A DNA stretch of 64,000 nucleotides, from contig JADFCV010000004.1 in NCBI GenBank assembly GCA_017161655.1, forward strand, positions 201,378 through 265,377, given 5' to 3'. Position 1 is the stretch's first letter. Each line of letters begins with the position of its first letter. The stretch is from Candidatus Sumerlaeota bacterium. Lineage in GTDB: Bacteria; Sumerlaeota; Sumerlaeia; Sumerlaeales; Sumerlaeaceae. The position numbers and the translations under genes were made by a program. Below the pieces are notes generated by a model. That model was not told the DNA's origin. It did not search any database and saw nothing but the letters and a program-made list of their open reading frames with translations. Of the stretch, positions 35,913 to 43,917 are shown one piece after another.

Positions 35913-37036
35913 AGCTGCTTCTCAAAGCGCCGAATTGGATTGGTGATTGCGTGATGGCCACGCCAGCAGTGGCCCACCTGCGTGCTGCTTTTCCAACTGC
36001 CAACCTCACTGTGCTCTCCCGCCGAAGTTGCGCCGGCATTTGGCTAAACCATCCTCTCATCGATGACGTCATTGTTGCGGACGATCGAGAGTTCAAGCAT
36101 CGCCAAATCTCCGAGCTGCGTCATCTCAATTTCGATGCGGCGATTCTTTTTCCTAATTCCTTTCGGTCTGCGTGGGTGATTTGGCGGGCGGGTATTCCCC
36201 GGCGTTTTGGCTACAATCGCGCGGGCCGCATGTGGCTGCTGACGGATCTTCTTCCTTTTCGGCGGCGCGAATGGCAAACCGCAACGCCGGAACCTGTCAC
36301 CAAAAAGAGCATTCGTCCTAAAGGCGATGATCCTCCACCCCGCCACATGGTCGAGTATTATCTCGATCTCGCATCCTTCGCTGCGAGGCGCTTAGGTGCG
36401 ACAGTTGCGCCCCCCTGCGTTGATCCAGCACGCTCGTATCCGCCCCTGGTCTTGCCCGTTCAACCCACGGCGGATGCCACGGTGGAGCAAGTTCTTGCGC
36501 GTGAAGGAGTGTCACCTTCTGCTCCCCTCATAGGAATTCACCCCGGAGCCGCCTACGGTGGCGCAAAGCGCTGGCCTCTCGATCGCCTTGCACGAGCCGC
36601 CGAGTTACTTGCTCGCGAACTGAGAGCGACTGTAGTTATCACGGCTGGGCCAGCCGAAAGCGAGCTCTCCGCTGAATTGGCTCGTTCTATTGCCGTGCCG
36701 GTGTTGGAACTAGGACCACGTTTCGATTTGCCCTGTCTTACCGCCCTCCTTCGACGCCTCAAGCTCTTCATTGGGAATGATACGGGTGTTACCCACATGG
36801 CGGCGGCGGTCGGTACTCCCACCGTGGTTGTCTTTGGCCCCATGGATTGGAACGTGACTCGCCCGTGGTCGTCACGGGCGCGAGTTGTGCGCAAAAGCCC
36901 CCCATGTGCGCCTTGTTTTTTGCGTGAGTGTCCGCTCGATCACCGCTGCATGACTCAGGTTGTCCCAGAGGATGTTGTTGAGGCGGCCCGTTCACTTCTC
37001 ACGGAAGTTAAAGAGGCGGCGCATGCAGTTCAGTAA
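35909..37036 (+). CDS. waaF: Lipopolysaccharide heptosyltransferase II-like (GT9)
   Basis: LLLKAPNWIGDCVMATPAVAHLRAAFP; IGIHPGAAYGGAKRWP; FIGNDTGVTHMAAAVGTPTVVVFGPMDWNVTRPW. GTG start overlapping the upstream stop. Confidence 0.92.
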   Translation: MKLLLKAPNWIGDCVMATPAVAHLRAAFPTANLTVLSRRSCAGIWLNHPLIDDVIVADDREFKHRQISELRHLNFDAAILFPNSFRSAWVIWRAGIPRRFGYNRAGRMWLLTDLLPFRRREWQTATPEPVTKKSIRPKGDDPPPRHMVEYYLDLASFAARRLGATVAPPCVDPARSYPPLVLPVQPTADATVEQVLAREGVSPSAPLIGIHPGAAYGGAKRWPLDRLARAAELLARELRATVVITAGPAESELSAELARSIAVPVLELGPRFDLPCLTALLRRLKLFIGNDTGVTHMAAAVGTPTVVVFGPMDWNVTRPWSSRARVVRKSPPCAPCFLRECPLDHRCMTQVVPEDVVEAARSLLTEVKEAAHAVQ

Positions 37037-38165
37037 ACCGTTGGTGCTCCATCTATCCACAGAAAAAGGCTGGCGTGGAGGCGAGCGTCAGGTCCAGTTG
37101 CTCACGAACGGACTTCTTTCACGCGGATGGCCCTGCCTGGTTGCATCTCCACCCGACAGCGAGCTGTATCACGAGCGGAGAAAACAAGATAGCAAGTTAG
37201 CTGTTGCGCTTCCTATGCGCAACGAGTGGGATCTCCCCGCAGTAGCTCGGTTGGTACAAATCATTCGCCAACACAATCCTGCCATTCTTCACGCCCACAC
37301 CTCCCATGCTCATGCGCTTGCTTGGTTAGCAGGAAGAATCACAAACCGTCCGGTCGTCGTCACTCGCCGCGTAGATTTTCCCATTTCCACCAACTGGTTA
37401 TCAAAGCGAAAGTACCTCTCACCTTCTGTGACGTTTATCGCAATTTCCGAAGGCGTGCGTGAAGTGCTCATGCGTGGCGGCGTGCCGCGCGAGCGGATTC
37501 ACCTTGTGCACAGCGGCATAGAGCTAGGTCGCTATGAGTTTCGCAAAGGTCCCCGCGACGAGGCTGCGGCAAATACTTTTGGTGTCCGTGCTGGGGAAGC
37601 TTTTATCCTCAATGTCGCCGCCCTCGTTGATCATAAAGATCACCTTACACTCATCCGAGCCGCAGCACAACTGCGCGAGATCGCGCCCCGACCGTGGAGG
37701 CTTTTCATTGCGGGTTCGGGAGAAGAAGAGCCTCGGATTCGCAAAGCCATTGCTGAGTATGCGCTCGAGGAGCAGGTGACACTGTTGGGATATGTTCGCG
37801 ACTTGGTTCCTCTCTATCGCGCCGCGGACGTTTTTGTCCTCTCTTCGCATCTTGAAGGACTTTGTACTTCCATTCTTGATGCCATGACGGCGGGCGTTCC
37901 CGTGGTCGCAACCGACACAGGCGGCGTCCGAGACGCTGTTGCCCACGAGCAGACCGGGCTTCTCGTCCCGCCACGGAATCCTGGTGCATTGGCCGGCGCC
38001 ATCGCTCGGCTCCTTGAGGAACCAGAATTAGCTCGCGCCTTAACCGCCCATGCCCGCGCGAAAGTTGAAAAAGAGTTCACGGCCGACGCCATGGTCGAAG
38101 GCACCATTCGCGTTTATGAGAGTGTGCTGCGAGCGATTGGTAGCTCCTCGTGCAGAACATGCTGA
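37023..38165 (+). CDS. Glycosyltransferase family 4
   Basis: HLSTEKGWRGGERQVQLLTNGL; GSGEEEPRIRKAIAEYALEEQVTLLGYVRDLVPLYRAADVFVLSSHLEGLCTSILDAMTAGVPVVATDTGGVRD. Confidence 0.92.
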   Translation: MQFSKPLVLHLSTEKGWRGGERQVQLLTNGLLSRGWPCLVASPPDSELYHERRKQDSKLAVALPMRNEWDLPAVARLVQIIRQHNPAILHAHTSHAHALAWLAGRITNRPVVVTRRVDFPISTNWLSKRKYLSPSVTFIAISEGVREVLMRGGVPRERIHLVHSGIELGRYEFRKGPRDEAAANTFGVRAGEAFILNVAALVDHKDHLTLIRAAAQLREIAPRPWRLFIAGSGEEEPRIRKAIAEYALEEQVTLLGYVRDLVPLYRAADVFVLSSHLEGLCTSILDAMTAGVPVVATDTGGVRDAVAHEQTGLLVPPRNPGALAGAIARLLEEPELARALTAHARAKVEKEFTADAMVEGTIRVYESVLRAIGSSSCRTC

Positions 38166-38251
38166 AAGCGTGTCGAATTTCCGATCCCCCCACAGGACCG
38201 AAATTTTTTCTTGCATAGATTCCGCCTTGTGAGGGTAAAGAAGAATTACAA

Positions 38252-38338
38252 ATGCATCCCGCAAACAACATACAGCGTCTTTTTGCTGAGCGAGTACTTC
38301 TCGTAGCAGTAGTCGCTGTATGCGGCCTTGCGCCGTAG
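38252..38338 (+). CDS. Attenuator leader peptide (28 aa, Val/Leu-rich) for the ilvBN operon
   Basis: ATG 38252 to TAG 38336-38338: MHPANNIQRLFAERVLLVAVVAVCGLAP*. Residues 15-23 (VLLVAVVAV) are 7/9 Val/Leu. It lies just before competing RNA hairpins and ilvB. Below the ORF-track size cutoff. Confidence 0.85.
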   Translation: MHPANNIQRLFAERVLLVAVVAVCGLAP

Positions 38339-38413
38339 CGGGGATGCGCGCGTAGTTAGCATAAGTTTTGAGCCCCCGCCGGCGCAAGGGTCGGCGGGGG
38401 CTCTTCTATTTTC
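38261..38413 (+). promoter_or_regulatory. Transcription attenuator (pause hairpin / antiterminator / terminator) of ilvBN
   Basis: Pause stem: 38269-38277 CATACAGCG with 38314-38322 CGCTGTATG, plus 38261-38264 GCAA with 38328-38331 TTGC. Antiterminator: 38326-38335 CCTTGCGCCG with 38380-38389 CGGCGCAAGG, plus 38338-38343 GCGGGG with 38374-38379 CCCCGC. The antiterminator excludes the terminator at 38371-38402. Confidence 0.87.
38371..38412 (+). terminator. Intrinsic terminator of the ilvBN attenuator
   Basis: Stem 38371-38383 AGCCCCCGCCGGC with 38390-38402 GTCGGCGGGGGCT (13 bp with one G-U), loop GCAAGG, then CTTCTATTTT. Confidence 0.88.
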
Positions 38414-38472
38414 CCCTCTTCCTCTTGCCCAAGCGGTGGCTAATCCCAAAGCCAAAAGGAGCAGCAACAATC

Positions 38473-40158
38473 ATGAAAGCGTCGGGTGCACAAATCATCG
38501 CTCATTTACTTGAGCGCCATGGCATCACGTATGTGCCAGGAATTCCTGGCGGAGCAAATCTGCCTTTGTACGATGCTGTGAAGGCGAGTAAAATCCGACA
38601 TATCCTGGCACGCCACGAACAGGGGGGCGGTTTCATTGCCCAGGGGATGGCACGCACCACGGGGCGCACGGCAGTCTGTTTCGCCACGTCGGGGCCAGGC
38701 GCAACAAACCTGCTCACGGCTATTGCTGACGCCAAGCTAGACTCAATTCCGCTTGTCGCGATCACGGGGCAAGTGCCGCGGGCAATGATAGGGACGGACG
38801 CCTTTCAAGAGATCGACACTTATGGTCTGACCATTCCGATCACCAAGCACAACTACCTTGTTCGTGACGCGGCCGAACTTCTTGAGGTGATTCCAGAAGC
38901 ATTCAGAATTGCTGGGTCGGGTCGCCCCGGTCCAGTCGTGGTGGACGTGCCCAAGGATGTCCAGAATCAAGTGGTGGAATTTGATAAGTGGCCAGATCCG
39001 TTGCCGCTAGCCACCCCACCGAGACCTTCAGCTGAAGAGATCCGTCGTGCCGAAGAGCTCATCAGCAAAGCTCAGCGCCCTGTCATTCTCATTGGAGCTG
39101 GCGTTGTGTCTGCCGACGCGGGGGACTTCGTGATTCAGCTAGCCGAGAGGATCGACGCTCCCATTGCGTCCACACTCCTCGGCCTGGGTGCAGTGCCGAG
39201 CTCCCACCCGCGTATGCTAGGCATGATGGGAATGCACGGTGCACCCAGCACAAATTATATCATCCACGAAGCCGATCTCGTGATTGCGCTCGGGATGCGT
39301 TTCGACGACCGCGCCACCGGTAAGGCGAGCGAGTTCTGTCCGAACGCCGCCATCATTCACGTGGATCTTGACCGCTGTGAGCTGGGGAAAATCAAACGTC
39401 CTACCCTGGCGGTGGAAGCAGATGTGAAAGAGTTTTTGGGCGAGCTCTTGCAGCATCTTTCGCCTGGTCCGCGGCCCGAGTGGCGTGAGCGCACCGACGA
39501 ACTTCGTGCCGAGTTCCCTCTCCTCATGCCTGGGAGCGACGATGCGTGCCAACCCTATGGCTGTGTGTTGCAAACGGCTAACCTCCTCGATGAAGCACCA
39601 GTCGTCGTCACGGATGTGGGACAACATCAGATGTGGGTGGCACAGGCATTCCCATTCAGCTTTCCGCGACAACTACTCACCTCTGGAGGACTGGGCACGA
39701 TGGGCTTCGGTCTACCCGCGGCTATCGGTGCAGCCCTGGCTCGTCCAGATAAAACCGTGGTGCTCTTCAGCGGTGACGGAAGCCTCTTAATGAACATCCA
39801 GGAGATGGCGACAGCCGCCGAACTCGGCGTGAACGTGAAGGTCATCCTTATGAACAACGCCCACCTCGGCCTTGTGCGTCAGCAGCAGGAGCTGTTCTAC
39901 GGGGCGCGCTTTCATGCCTCACGTTTCGAATTCGAACCCGATTTCGTTGCCATTGCTCGAGGCTTTGGCTGGAATGCCTGCAATCTCGGCCAAGCCACCG
40001 ATCCGGTGGAAATGCTCGCAACCGCGCTTTCGCAACCGGGTCCTACATTCGTCAATGTTCCCATTCCGCGCACAGTGAATGTGCTCCCGATGGTGCCACC
40101 GGGCGCTCCCAATATCGAAATGATCGGAGGACACTCGCATGTCTGCCAAAACGCATGA
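38473..40158 (+). CDS. ilvB: Acetolactate synthase large subunit
   Basis: [78 protein letters not shown]-like [28 protein letters not shown]. Confidence 0.97.
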
Positions 40159-40471
40159 ACCCATTACCCCGAATGATCAAATTATCCGTGACGAGCGTCG
40201 CCCAGTCTTGCGGCTTGTGGTCCGCAATCATCCCGGTGTGATGTCGCACATCTGTGGGCTGTTCGCACGCCGCGCGTTCAATGTGGAGGCAATTCTCTGT
40301 CTGCCGATCGAGGATGGCCAGCGCAGCGTCATTCTCCTTCTCGTCGACGAAGATGAACGGCTCGAGCAGATGGTGCGTCAGATCGAAAAACTGGAAGACG
40401 TTCTCGAAGTGACGCGAGAAGAAGACGGGCACGAACCATTTGAGGCCATGGCTCGCTATTTGGCCTCTTAG
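40139..40471 (+). CDS. ilvN: Acetolactate synthase small subunit (ACT domain)
   Basis: [46 protein letters not shown]; 20-nt overlap with ilvB. Confidence 0.93.
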
Positions 40472-40589: not shown

Positions 40590-43500
40590 CTATCGGAGCA
40601 GTTCGTCGAGAAGCGCTCGTCGCGCCTCCGCTCCCACAACGCATTCGAACGGAAAAGCCACAACAATCATGCGTGCTTGGCCGACTCGATCCGTAACGGC
40701 AGCCCCCACGCCAGTATCAGCATACCGGAGCACAATCTTTCCCCCTTTCTGCGCGGGTGCGACGCCACCGGCAGCTTCGACGCCATAGACACCATCTTCC
40801 CCAAGGTCCTTGCTCACATGCAGTTGCAGCGAAGAGAGGACGGATCGCACGTCGTTAGTGCGCGAGGCTCTTTCAGCTGTCCATTTGCACCGCAATACGT
40901 CGCGGACAAACGACTTCGTATCGGATGAGGCCAGGGCGCCAATGACCGCATCAGTGGCAACGTACGATCCTGAAACAAGGATGTTGACCTGCTGTGTGGT
41001 CAAATCGCGGACCCACTGCCTGAGTGCCGATGGCCACACTTCAAAGCGTGGCCCCATTCGATCCGCCACTGCTCCTTTCGGATCATGAGCTGGCGGAGGT
41101 AATGTCGTGCGCTGTTCGCCGAATAGCAGATCAATCACTGCATAACGTTTTGCAGTATCAGCGACCGGCAGTTTCACGCAGTCCTTGGCGTTGATCGTAT
41201 CCACTCCGTAGCCAAGAGCAGCGAACGCCTCAGCGTGTCGCAACGCAAGATCGGGCGTTCGTCCGACCTCACATGTTGTCTCCAAATCCCCGTATGAAGC
41301 GCCATGTCCTGGATGATCGTTCGTGTAAGGGGAATCCTCACCAACCCACGCGTGGGTGCGGTCAAAATCAAACTGATCACCTACGAGTGGCGAATTCCAG
41401 ATCTCCGCAACGCCTTGGTCCAGTGAGCGGCTAACGCCTTCGAAGGTTGTCCCCCCCAAAGTGTTAGGTGCAGGTCCTTGCGACGCCACAAATGCTGGCG
41501 GGGCAATCCGATCGAAACCATGCACGATCAGAGCGCGTTTGCCAGTTCCGGCGGTCACGCTGTAAGCATCCGAAGGTGCCGACTCTCCGCCAGCATTGAC
41601 CGCACTTACACAAAAACTTTCTACCGCAGCCGGATTGCTCGCGGTCAGAGGTAAATTCGCCACTGTCGTGTTTCCCACATAAGTCCCACTGTCAAAGCCC
41701 CCCGCTCCGACTTTGCGATACACGATATAACCGGTCGGAGAAGCAGTCGGTTCGAGAGGATCAGGTGTCGGTTCCCATTCCAGACGTACTTGCCCGCCGT
41801 CAAGTCGTGCTGCCACCATCCGTGGAGCCAGGGGGGCAACAACCGGCTGGTAGCCGTATTCCGTGGCCAGAAAGCGCAGGATCCCCTTGTAAATAGCTCG
41901 AGCCCAGGTCTGCCGAAAACTCGGATCGAGAGCAAATTTGATGTCATCATAGTTTTGGTGCGACAGCGCTTCTATCAGCACGCACGGCACATTTGGGCGC
42001 CGCGCCTCGGCGTAGTCGCGGTCCCCAAGATCTCGTCTATTCCATGTGCTGCAAAATTTTGCCCGAATGTCCTGGACGATTTGTGTTTGCACCAGGTCGG
42101 CAAGATCGCGATTCAACATCCGGTCGCGTCCGTCGGGGAAAAACTCCGATTTTGACTCATCAGCGAGACGGTAGATTGCGAGCGTACCAATCGTGCCAGT
42201 TGAGATTGTCGCGTCCGTATGCAAGGCAAACGCCACATCCACGGGTACACCTTTGCCTGGTGCCTTGCGATTCGTATTTGGTCCACGCGGAGCGCCGACC
42301 AAATAATTCACGAATTCCGGCCGTCCCACATAATCCTCAGTATAATCTTCCCCTGCATGCTTACCGAAAGCGTAGACCAGAGCGGGATCGACTCCTGCGT
42401 ACTGGAACCAATAGCGCGCCGCTTCCAGAAAGCGCGGATAGCCACTGGGGCGTCCGTCGCGCGTGACATTTCCCATCCCTCCCCCGAACTTTACAGCGTC
42501 AGCGCTAAGTGAGCCAGGAGCTGACCCTTCTGCCAGGAGTTCCACACTTCCTCGCTCTGCAGCTTGGCCGGCCTGAAAACGAAAGGTTCCCAGATAGACC
42601 CACATGTTGCCGGCTATCTGCTGGTTGACGTAGACATCTTTGACGCCGCCCCAATAGTGCACGCGATAGTGAGCTCGCGGAGAACGTTGCGCATCCGCGC
42701 TATACGAAACGTACACCGCGTAGTCACCGTCTTCAGGAAACCGCGGAATCCATCGTGCAAAAGTAGCCGGCACTGTGCCGCGAGTTTCGTGCGTGCGTCC
42801 AAGTGTGTGGGGATTGATTCCCTCTGCGTAGGGGGCTTTCCCATTCGCAAATCCCGCCGCGTTGCTCGGCACAAAGCCACTGCACTCGAAAACCCCATTT
42901 GGTCCCGATGTCCCATCACCGTCATCAACAATGACTTCACGAAGCTGATAATCGCGCTCACGACACGAAATCACCGTCGCTCCCGCGCGTTCGAGCATTG
43001 GAATAAGATAATCGTTCACGACCGACATCGTGAGGCGATCCTCAACGGTGGTAAACATACGCGGCCGTTGCCACGTCCAGCGCCCACTTGCGCGATCGTA
43101 GTAAAGGCCATGACTGGCCCAAACGACAATATGCTTCCCCGCTAAACCCTGAACCGGCGAGGGAGCGCCCGAAGGCATGGGGACGTCACGCAATGGGGCC
43201 ATGGCACGAGGCGGTGCTTGCGATGCGCCGCTTCGAGGCTTGCGCTCGGGGCGGAAGTATGGAGGGACATACTCGTCAATAAGACGGCTTCCGACATGAA
43301 CAATGACTTGGGATGTCTGCGGGACGTTCGCCGCCTTGCGCAAGCCTTCGAGTAACAGCGAAATGTCGTCCGGCCGCCATGGGCGATCCGCTGCCTCCTT
43401 CGAAAGTTCGATGAGCGCCGCCGTAGATAGCGCGTCCGTTTTTACCACCTTTGTGCGTTTTGGAAGAAGGGGTGAGCCGTCCGCTGCTGTGATATTGGCC

Positions 43501-43604
43501 AGCGGAATCGGAGTCTGTTGGGCATCTGCGAGCGCAACCGAGCAAATAAGAGCCAATGCACTCGCCACGCAGCGAAGTGATCGCAACTCTTGCCAGGTGG
43601 ACAT
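40590..43604 (-). CDS. Secreted N-acetylmuramoyl-L-alanine amidase-like / 'xanthan lyase'-like protein with golvesin-like and FnIII-like domains
   Basis: Signal peptide; DGDYAVYVSYSADAQRSPRAHYRVHYWGGVKDVYVNQQIAGNMWVYLGTFRFQAGQAAERGSVEL (golvesin-like); VDVAFALHTDATISTGTIGTLAIY; GYIVYRKVGAGGFDSGTYVGNTTV...FCVSAVNAGGESAPSDAYSV. Start ATG 43604. Confidence 0.7.
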   Translation of the reverse strand: MSTWQELRSLRCVASALALICSVALADAQQTPIPLANITAADGSPLLPKRTKVVKTDALSTAALIELSKEAADRPWRPDDISLLLEGLRKAANVPQTSQVIVHVGSRLIDEYVPPYFRPERKPRSGASQAPPRAMAPLRDVPMPSGAPSPVQGLAGKHIVVWASHGLYYDRASGRWTWQRPRMFTTVEDRLTMSVVNDYLIPMLERAGATVISCRERDYQLREVIVDDGDGTSGPNGVFECSGFVPSNAAGFANGKAPYAEGINPHTLGRTHETRGTVPATFARWIPRFPEDGDYAVYVSYSADAQRSPRAHYRVHYWGGVKDVYVNQQIAGNMWVYLGTFRFQAGQAAERGSVELLAEGSAPGSLSADAVKFGGGMGNVTRDGRPSGYPRFLEAARYWFQYAGVDPALVYAFGKHAGEDYTEDYVGRPEFVNYLVGAPRGPNTNRKAPGKGVPVDVAFALHTDATISTGTIGTLAIYRLADESKSEFFPDGRDRMLNRDLADLVQTQIVQDIRAKFCSTWNRRDLGDRDYAEARRPNVPCVLIEALSHQNYDDIKFALDPSFRQTWARAIYKGILRFLATEYGYQPVVAPLAPRMVAARLDGGQVRLEWEPTPDPLEPTASPTGYIVYRKVGAGGFDSGTYVGNTTVANLPLTASNPAAVESFCVSAVNAGGESAPSDAYSVTAGTGKRALIVHGFDRIAPPAFVASQGPAPNTLGGTTFEGVSRSLDQGVAEIWNSPLVGDQFDFDRTHAWVGEDSPYTNDHPGHGASYGDLETTCEVGRTPDLALRHAEAFAALGYGVDTINAKDCVKLPVADTAKRYAVIDLLFGEQRTTLPPPAHDPKGAVADRMGPRFEVWPSALRQWVRDLTTQQVNILVSGSYVATDAVIGALASSDTKSFVRDVLRCKWTAERASRTNDVRSVLSSLQLHVSKDLGEDGVYGVEAAGGVAPAQKGGKIVLRYADTGVGAAVTDRVGQARMIVVAFPFECVVGAEARRALLDELLR

Positions 43605-43917
43605 GGATGAGAGTTCCTTTCCACTATTCTGTGATACGGGCACCGTCGTGACAAATCGGGCTCTCCGCAAGAGATTGTTTAGAATTACAAAACCAAAAAC
43701 TAACGAAATGGTTTGCTATCCATGCTCACCGAGACGCGAATCTTCTCCCCGCTCGTTGTTTTCGCTGAAAGAAAACGCTGCGGGAGTGCATCATTCCAAA
43801 AGGTGTTTTGTTCCCAGCGAGGTAAGGTCAGGATTGATTTCCCCCATCGGCAACCCGCAAAGTGACGCGAGACTAGGTGATAACATGATTCTGCACGCTA
43901 AGATGAGGGACAAACTG

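Follow-up and report, generated by a model that had tools for sequence, protein, structure and literature searches.

The window, that is, the whole 64,000-nucleotide stretch of DNA analysed here, contains the genes for the two subunits of an acetolactate synthase, ilvB and ilvN, preceded by a short open reading frame and a series of overlapping RNA stems (Table 1). The large subunit finds its best match in the profile PRK08155 at 868.8 bits, just below the cut-off of 870, and the small subunit exceeds the cut-off of PRK08178; these scores bear out the downstream operon named in an earlier note on this DNA, which had been made from the sequence alone. The start of ilvB lies 134 bases beyond the leader stop, with a strong terminator between the two. 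Downstream of ilvN, an ORF of 1026 aa on the minus strand (40590–43670) gives a weak, partial match to a CwlD amidase model. The contig also carries a second acetolactate synthase large-subunit gene, 43% identical (G000:C12:188727-190445, L141), about 11 kb ahead of the first base of the window; no Val/Leu leader was seen at this second gene.

Table 1 Features of the ilvBN leader region and its surroundings (positions in the window)
Feature	Position	Strand	Details
Glycosyltransferase gene	36960–38165	same as leader	Ends 86 bases before the leader
Leader peptide ORF	38252–38338	+	28 aa, MHPANNIQRLFAERVLLVAVVAVCGLAP; ATG 38252, TAG 38336–38338; sequence re-read
Closing helix, 5' strand	38254–38262	+	Pairs with 38338–38347, 1-nt bulge; from the fold and relatives
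Pause stem, 5' strand	38269–38277	+	CATACAGCG, exact reverse complement of 38314–38322
Control codons 15–23	38294–38320	+	V L L V A V V A V, Val/Leu in 7 of 9
Pause stem, 3' strand	38314–38322	+	CGCTGTATG
Antiterminator, 5' strand	38326–38343	+	CCTTGCGCCG-TA-GCGGGG, spans the leader stop codon
Closing helix, 3' strand	38338–38347	+	Overlaps the antiterminator 5' strand
Intrinsic terminator stem-loop	38370–38403	+	14 pairs: 13 bp at 38371–38402 (one G-U) and outer pair 38370–38403
Antiterminator, 3' strand	38374–38389	+	CCCCGCCGGCGCAAGG, terminator 5' arm plus loop
Terminator U-rich tract	38404–38412	+	TTCTATTTT
Shine-Dalgarno of ilvB	38456–38461	+	AAGGAG, energy −7.9
ilvB, acetolactate synthase large subunit	38473–40158	+	E. 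coli IlvB (PRK08155) type
ilvN, acetolactate synthase small subunit	40139–40471	+	Short PRK08178 type, 110 aa

Direct reading of the sequence agrees with the earlier note on the length of the leader ORF and on its seven Val/Leu codons in nine. A run of at least 7 Ile, Leu or Val in 9 residues is found in this ORF alone among the 879 short ORFs (12–45 aa) in the six frames of the window. The valine codons of the leader read, in order, GTA GTA GTA GTC GTA; in the 36 long ORFs of the window GTA is the rarest valine codon, making up 7.5% of the total, and the excess in the leader (4 of 5 vs 7.5% in genes) has P = 1.5e-4. The Shine-Dalgarno energy of the leader, −3.9 kcal/mol, is about that of the best quarter of random positions, and the energy scan revealed no clear Shine-Dalgarno sequence for the leader ORF in either the window or the relatives. 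We raised the idea of a leaderless transcript because of this, and then dropped it. A promoter scan identified no consensus sigma-70-type site. The sequence TTGCAT, a candidate −35 or −10 element, is common to the window genome (G000; 38205–38252) and the relatives G001 and G005, 36–41 bases 5' of the leader ATG.

Within the class, 39 genomes were examined, 8 of which carry an IlvB of the E. coli type, and in all 8 a Val/Leu-rich leader and a terminator are found ahead of ilvB. The leaders of the relatives G001, G005, G006 and G002 read MQPAKTIQRLMNLVVVVVAVCGLAP, MIPANYMRTIVNRLAAVVVALVVVGLAP, MNIALHTTNALLPVTAPVVVGVVVVVGVLEAIAP and MQSTNYATTSATVPASPLALVAVVRVVLLAIAP, respectively, and the three remoter ones end in PIAP, PIAP and MNAP, in keeping with the xAP-stop ending of the class leaders. 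Each of the 8 is followed by a terminator 5' arm and loop resembling CCCCCGCCGGCGCAA. The peptides keep the Val run and drift at residues that belong neither to the Val/Leu run nor to the codons dictated by the antiterminator; the conservation that the earlier note had proposed looking for is present throughout the class members with this type of ilvB. At least half of the leader valine codons are GTA in all 8, and GTA occurs only 0–4 times in their ilvB genes. According to theory, an attenuator can be highly sensitive only if specific synonymous codons are chosen (PMC1183508), and the GTA bias of the leader provides natural support for the use of a particular, starvation-sensitive codon by attenuators (PMC1183508).

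The element (38252–38413) folds with a minimum free energy of −82.8 kcal/mol, compared with −57.2 ± 3.9 in shuffled sequences (z = −6.5). The pause stem given in the earlier note stands as an exact complement, and is found with an identical 9 bp in G001 and re-paired at 9 of 10 positions in G005; its proposed extension, 38261–38264 with 38328–38331, does not stand, as the fold prefers the closing helix, 38254–38262 with 38338–38347, which that note missed. In the best fold the closing helix shuts the whole leader ORF around the pause hairpin, joining bases just past the ATG start to bases just past the stop. A helix closing the leader in this way is the counterpart of structure 1:2 in classical attenuators. 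It was assessed by means of duplex energies rather than pair counts because the MAFFT alignment of whole leaders misplaced the start region of G006. Duplexes of the leader start with the post-stop region had better energies when both strands came from one sequence than when they were swapped between sequences, with P = 0.04 for the 8 class members and 0 of 5000 permutations for 18 diverse sequences. Compensating changes, by which different bases are re-paired, are clear in G001 (GCAACCCGC/GCGGGGTTGC), G005 (GATTCCCGC/GCGGGGATC) and G006 (ATGAAC/GTTCAT), weaker in G002 and unclear in G020 and G011. The closing helix may favour termination in an untranslated leader; the fold calculation has it forming first, but the antiterminator is more stable than the closing helix once transcribed.

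The antiterminator, which overlaps the leader stop, and the intrinsic terminator are mutually exclusive. On re-reading the sequence we found the 16 bp of the antiterminator and its TA bulge at 38336–38337 to be correct as first described, and likewise the 13 bp of the terminator, to which one more outer pair can be added. The bases of the terminator loop play no part in the terminator itself, make up half of the antiterminator and track the bases at the end of the leader ORF: CTT.GCGCC is matched by GGCGC.AAG in the window, ATC by GAT in G002, AGT by ACT in L044 and GAC by GTC in L047. Contiguous loop pairs number 2.07 in own combinations vs 1.07 in swapped ones for 14 diverse sequences (P = 5e-5), and 2.1 vs 1.4 for the 8 class members (P = 0.02). 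In the pair count over the antiterminator, 76% of the cells are paired at register 0 vs 22–48% when the strands are slid by 1–3 columns, a control that keeps relatedness; double-changed cells number 14 vs 7.5 in shuffles, which ignore relatedness, and 0 of 500 shuffles are as high. Thus, the loop bases covary with the end of the leader ORF as the antiterminator demands, and the compensatory changes suggested as a check by the earlier note are found for this stem.

The position of the ribosome at which the switch would turn was estimated from folds of RNA ending at the terminator loop, with 17 bases upstream and 15 bases downstream of the A-site start masked. The antiterminator value is 0.85–1.0 for simulated stalls at codons 15–21, at least 8 codons before the stop, and 0 for a simulated ribosome within 6 codons of the stop, at codon 23 or at the stop itself; in the model, codon 23 (GTA) is therefore too near the stop for a productive stall. 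The switch point lies between stop-8 and stop-6 in G001 and between stop-7 and stop-6 in G005, and in the E. coli ivbL control it falls between stop-7 and stop-6, about the same distance as in the window element. In the equilibrium fold of the full-length window RNA the terminator wins in every ribosome state and the switch must therefore be kinetic. The proposal that stalling frees the antiterminator thus holds in the folds before the terminator 3' arm is made, but not at full length.

We are highly confident that the leader element is a ribosome-mediated Val/Leu transcription attenuator of the E. coli ivbL-ilvBN type. This reading, already put forward in the earlier note, is supported by the conservation, the covariation, the GTA codons and the switch point, and the products of ilvBN make the amino acids that are sensed. 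Transcription would come from upstream of 38252, with RNA polymerase transcribing the leader and a ribosome following behind and translating it. When charged tRNA-Val and tRNA-Leu are ample, the ribosome would reach the last codons or the stop and cover 38326–38343; the antiterminator would then be blocked and the terminator would halt transcription ahead of ilvB, near 38410. A shortage of charged tRNA-Leu, or of charged tRNA-Val and most of all of the one that reads GTA, would stall the ribosome in codons 15–21; the antiterminator would then form ahead of the terminator 3' arm and ilvBN would be transcribed, giving the predicted direction of the response.

Three other explanations were weighed. 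The stem-loop could be an ordinary terminator of the glycosyltransferase gene, which shares the strand of the leader and stops just 86 bases 5' of it, where a terminator would be useful, the short ORF and the complementarity being due to chance. This is very improbable, as the leader ORF is unique of its kind among the 879 short ORFs, the leader, terminator and antiterminator are retained before ilvB in the relatives, loop bases with no part in the terminator change in step with the end of the leader, and in E. coli, too, the element precedes these genes. Equally small is the probability that the leader peptide acts by translational coupling, or in trans as a small protein, and not on transcription termination. 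A trans function is reported for another leader peptide, peTrpL (PMC7298713), but the peptide here drifts wherever neither the Val/Leu run nor the antiterminator fixes its codons; the distance from leader stop to ilvB, the strong terminator within it and the Shine-Dalgarno sequence that ilvB has of its own all speak against coupling.

We consider it scarcely credible, too, that the region is a ligand riboswitch or another ilvB RNA (ppGpp-type, T-box, ilvB-OMG or ilvB-II) in which the ORF is incidental. A distant IlvB relative in Fusibacter (L041) is without a leader ORF and has a GTGGTACCGCG stretch that we take to resemble that of T-boxes, and riboswitch-type RNAs do precede ilvB genes in other lineages (PMC10272879). 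Against this, a search of Rfam 15 gave no family at gathering score in the window and none with a meaningful E-value in the element, and the retained Val/Leu run and rare valine codons would be needless for a ligand sensor. An Escherichia sequence near-identical to E. coli ivbL (L038) likewise matches no Rfam leader family.

The attenuator reading can be placed in a wider setting by means of trees. In the RpoB tree the class forms a separate branch outside Pseudomonadota, next to Verrucomicrobiota with weak support. In the IlvB tree all the leader-bearing sequences included, that of E. coli too, form one clade (support 99/96), which also holds rows from Myxococcota, Fibrobacterota and Bacteroidota with Val-rich leaders; the IlvB of Photobacterium is outside the clade and its leader is Ile-rich and of another kind. 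The element, found here in a lineage outside Pseudomonadota, is less new than the earlier note implied, being of the E. coli ivbL type that runs through the IlvB clade.

A search of 386 genomes for the pattern GCGCCNTAG-N22-48-CCCCGCCGGCGC identified 5, of which 4 belong to the class and one (G367) to another phylum. In G367 (L148, 1300–1900) a GTA-rich short ORF ending DAP-TAG is followed by a CCCCGCCGGCGC terminator and then by an ilvB of the E. coli type, an attenuator of the same kind. The E. coli-type core (xAP-stop and CCCCGCCGGCGC) is thus found in the class, in Pseudomonadota and in G367, and partly in the Myxococcales row. Val-rich leader ORFs and terminators also precede ilvB in L057 (Fibrobacterota) and L084 (Bacteroidota), with leader ends (..LPLG and ..PPQG) and terminators unlike those of the E. 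coli type, and in L084 two Val-rich ORFs lie in tandem ahead of ilvB. It is possible, though we put this forward tentatively and as somewhat less probable than its opposite, that leader, terminator and ilvBN are a cassette, old or horizontally moved, that several phyla have in common and retain as a unit with its terminator core nearly unchanged, and that it is tuned here by the rarest valine codon and a strong closing helix. With terminator cores common to several phyla, the age or transfer of attenuators becomes testable.

Among known systems, the Corynebacterium ilvBNC attenuator, or ilvB-II motif, also has a leader ORF rich in branched-chain codons and a terminator before ilvB (PMC10272879), but differs, in a comparison made by description, in its ilvBNC operon and its two stems, P1 and P2. 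In the ilvB-OMG motif of various phyla, an RNA before ilvB, the uORF abounds in codons for threonine and the branched-chain amino acids (PMC10272879); compared again by description, the window leader has no threonine codons. A 2010 survey could name leader-peptide attenuators only from Proteobacteria and Actinobacteria, to which it added a case of its own in Firmicutes (PMC2965389).

The closest counterpart is E. coli ivbL-ilvBN (L039), for which dependence on Val and Leu has been measured with reporters (PMC11187965). The two have in common the PRK08155 type of ilvB, the short ilvN and a Val/Leu run near the leader C-terminus. The GNAP-TAG end of the E. coli leader matches the xAP-TAG of the window, and the antiterminator strand TGCGCCGTAG and terminator core CCCCGCCGGCGCAA are shared; the terminator core of the window, CCCCGCCGGCGC, has its match in the CCCCGCCGGCGCAAA of E. 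coli, and the window leader likewise ends ..AP-stop. The position of the productive stall codons, as given by the masking folds, is about the same. The valine codons differ, the window leader being rich in GTA whereas ivbL uses GTG and GTC, and both the terminator and the helix joining the start and end of the leader are stronger in the window, so that at full length its RNA leans much more strongly towards termination than that of E. coli. The mechanism is already known; what is new is the lineage, together with the GTA bias, the closing helix and the evidence from covariation. The range of the best-known Val/Leu attenuator thereby grows beyond Enterobacteriaceae to take in an uncultured class that is not part of Pseudomonadota, and the relatives are numerous enough for covariation of the antiterminator to be seen.
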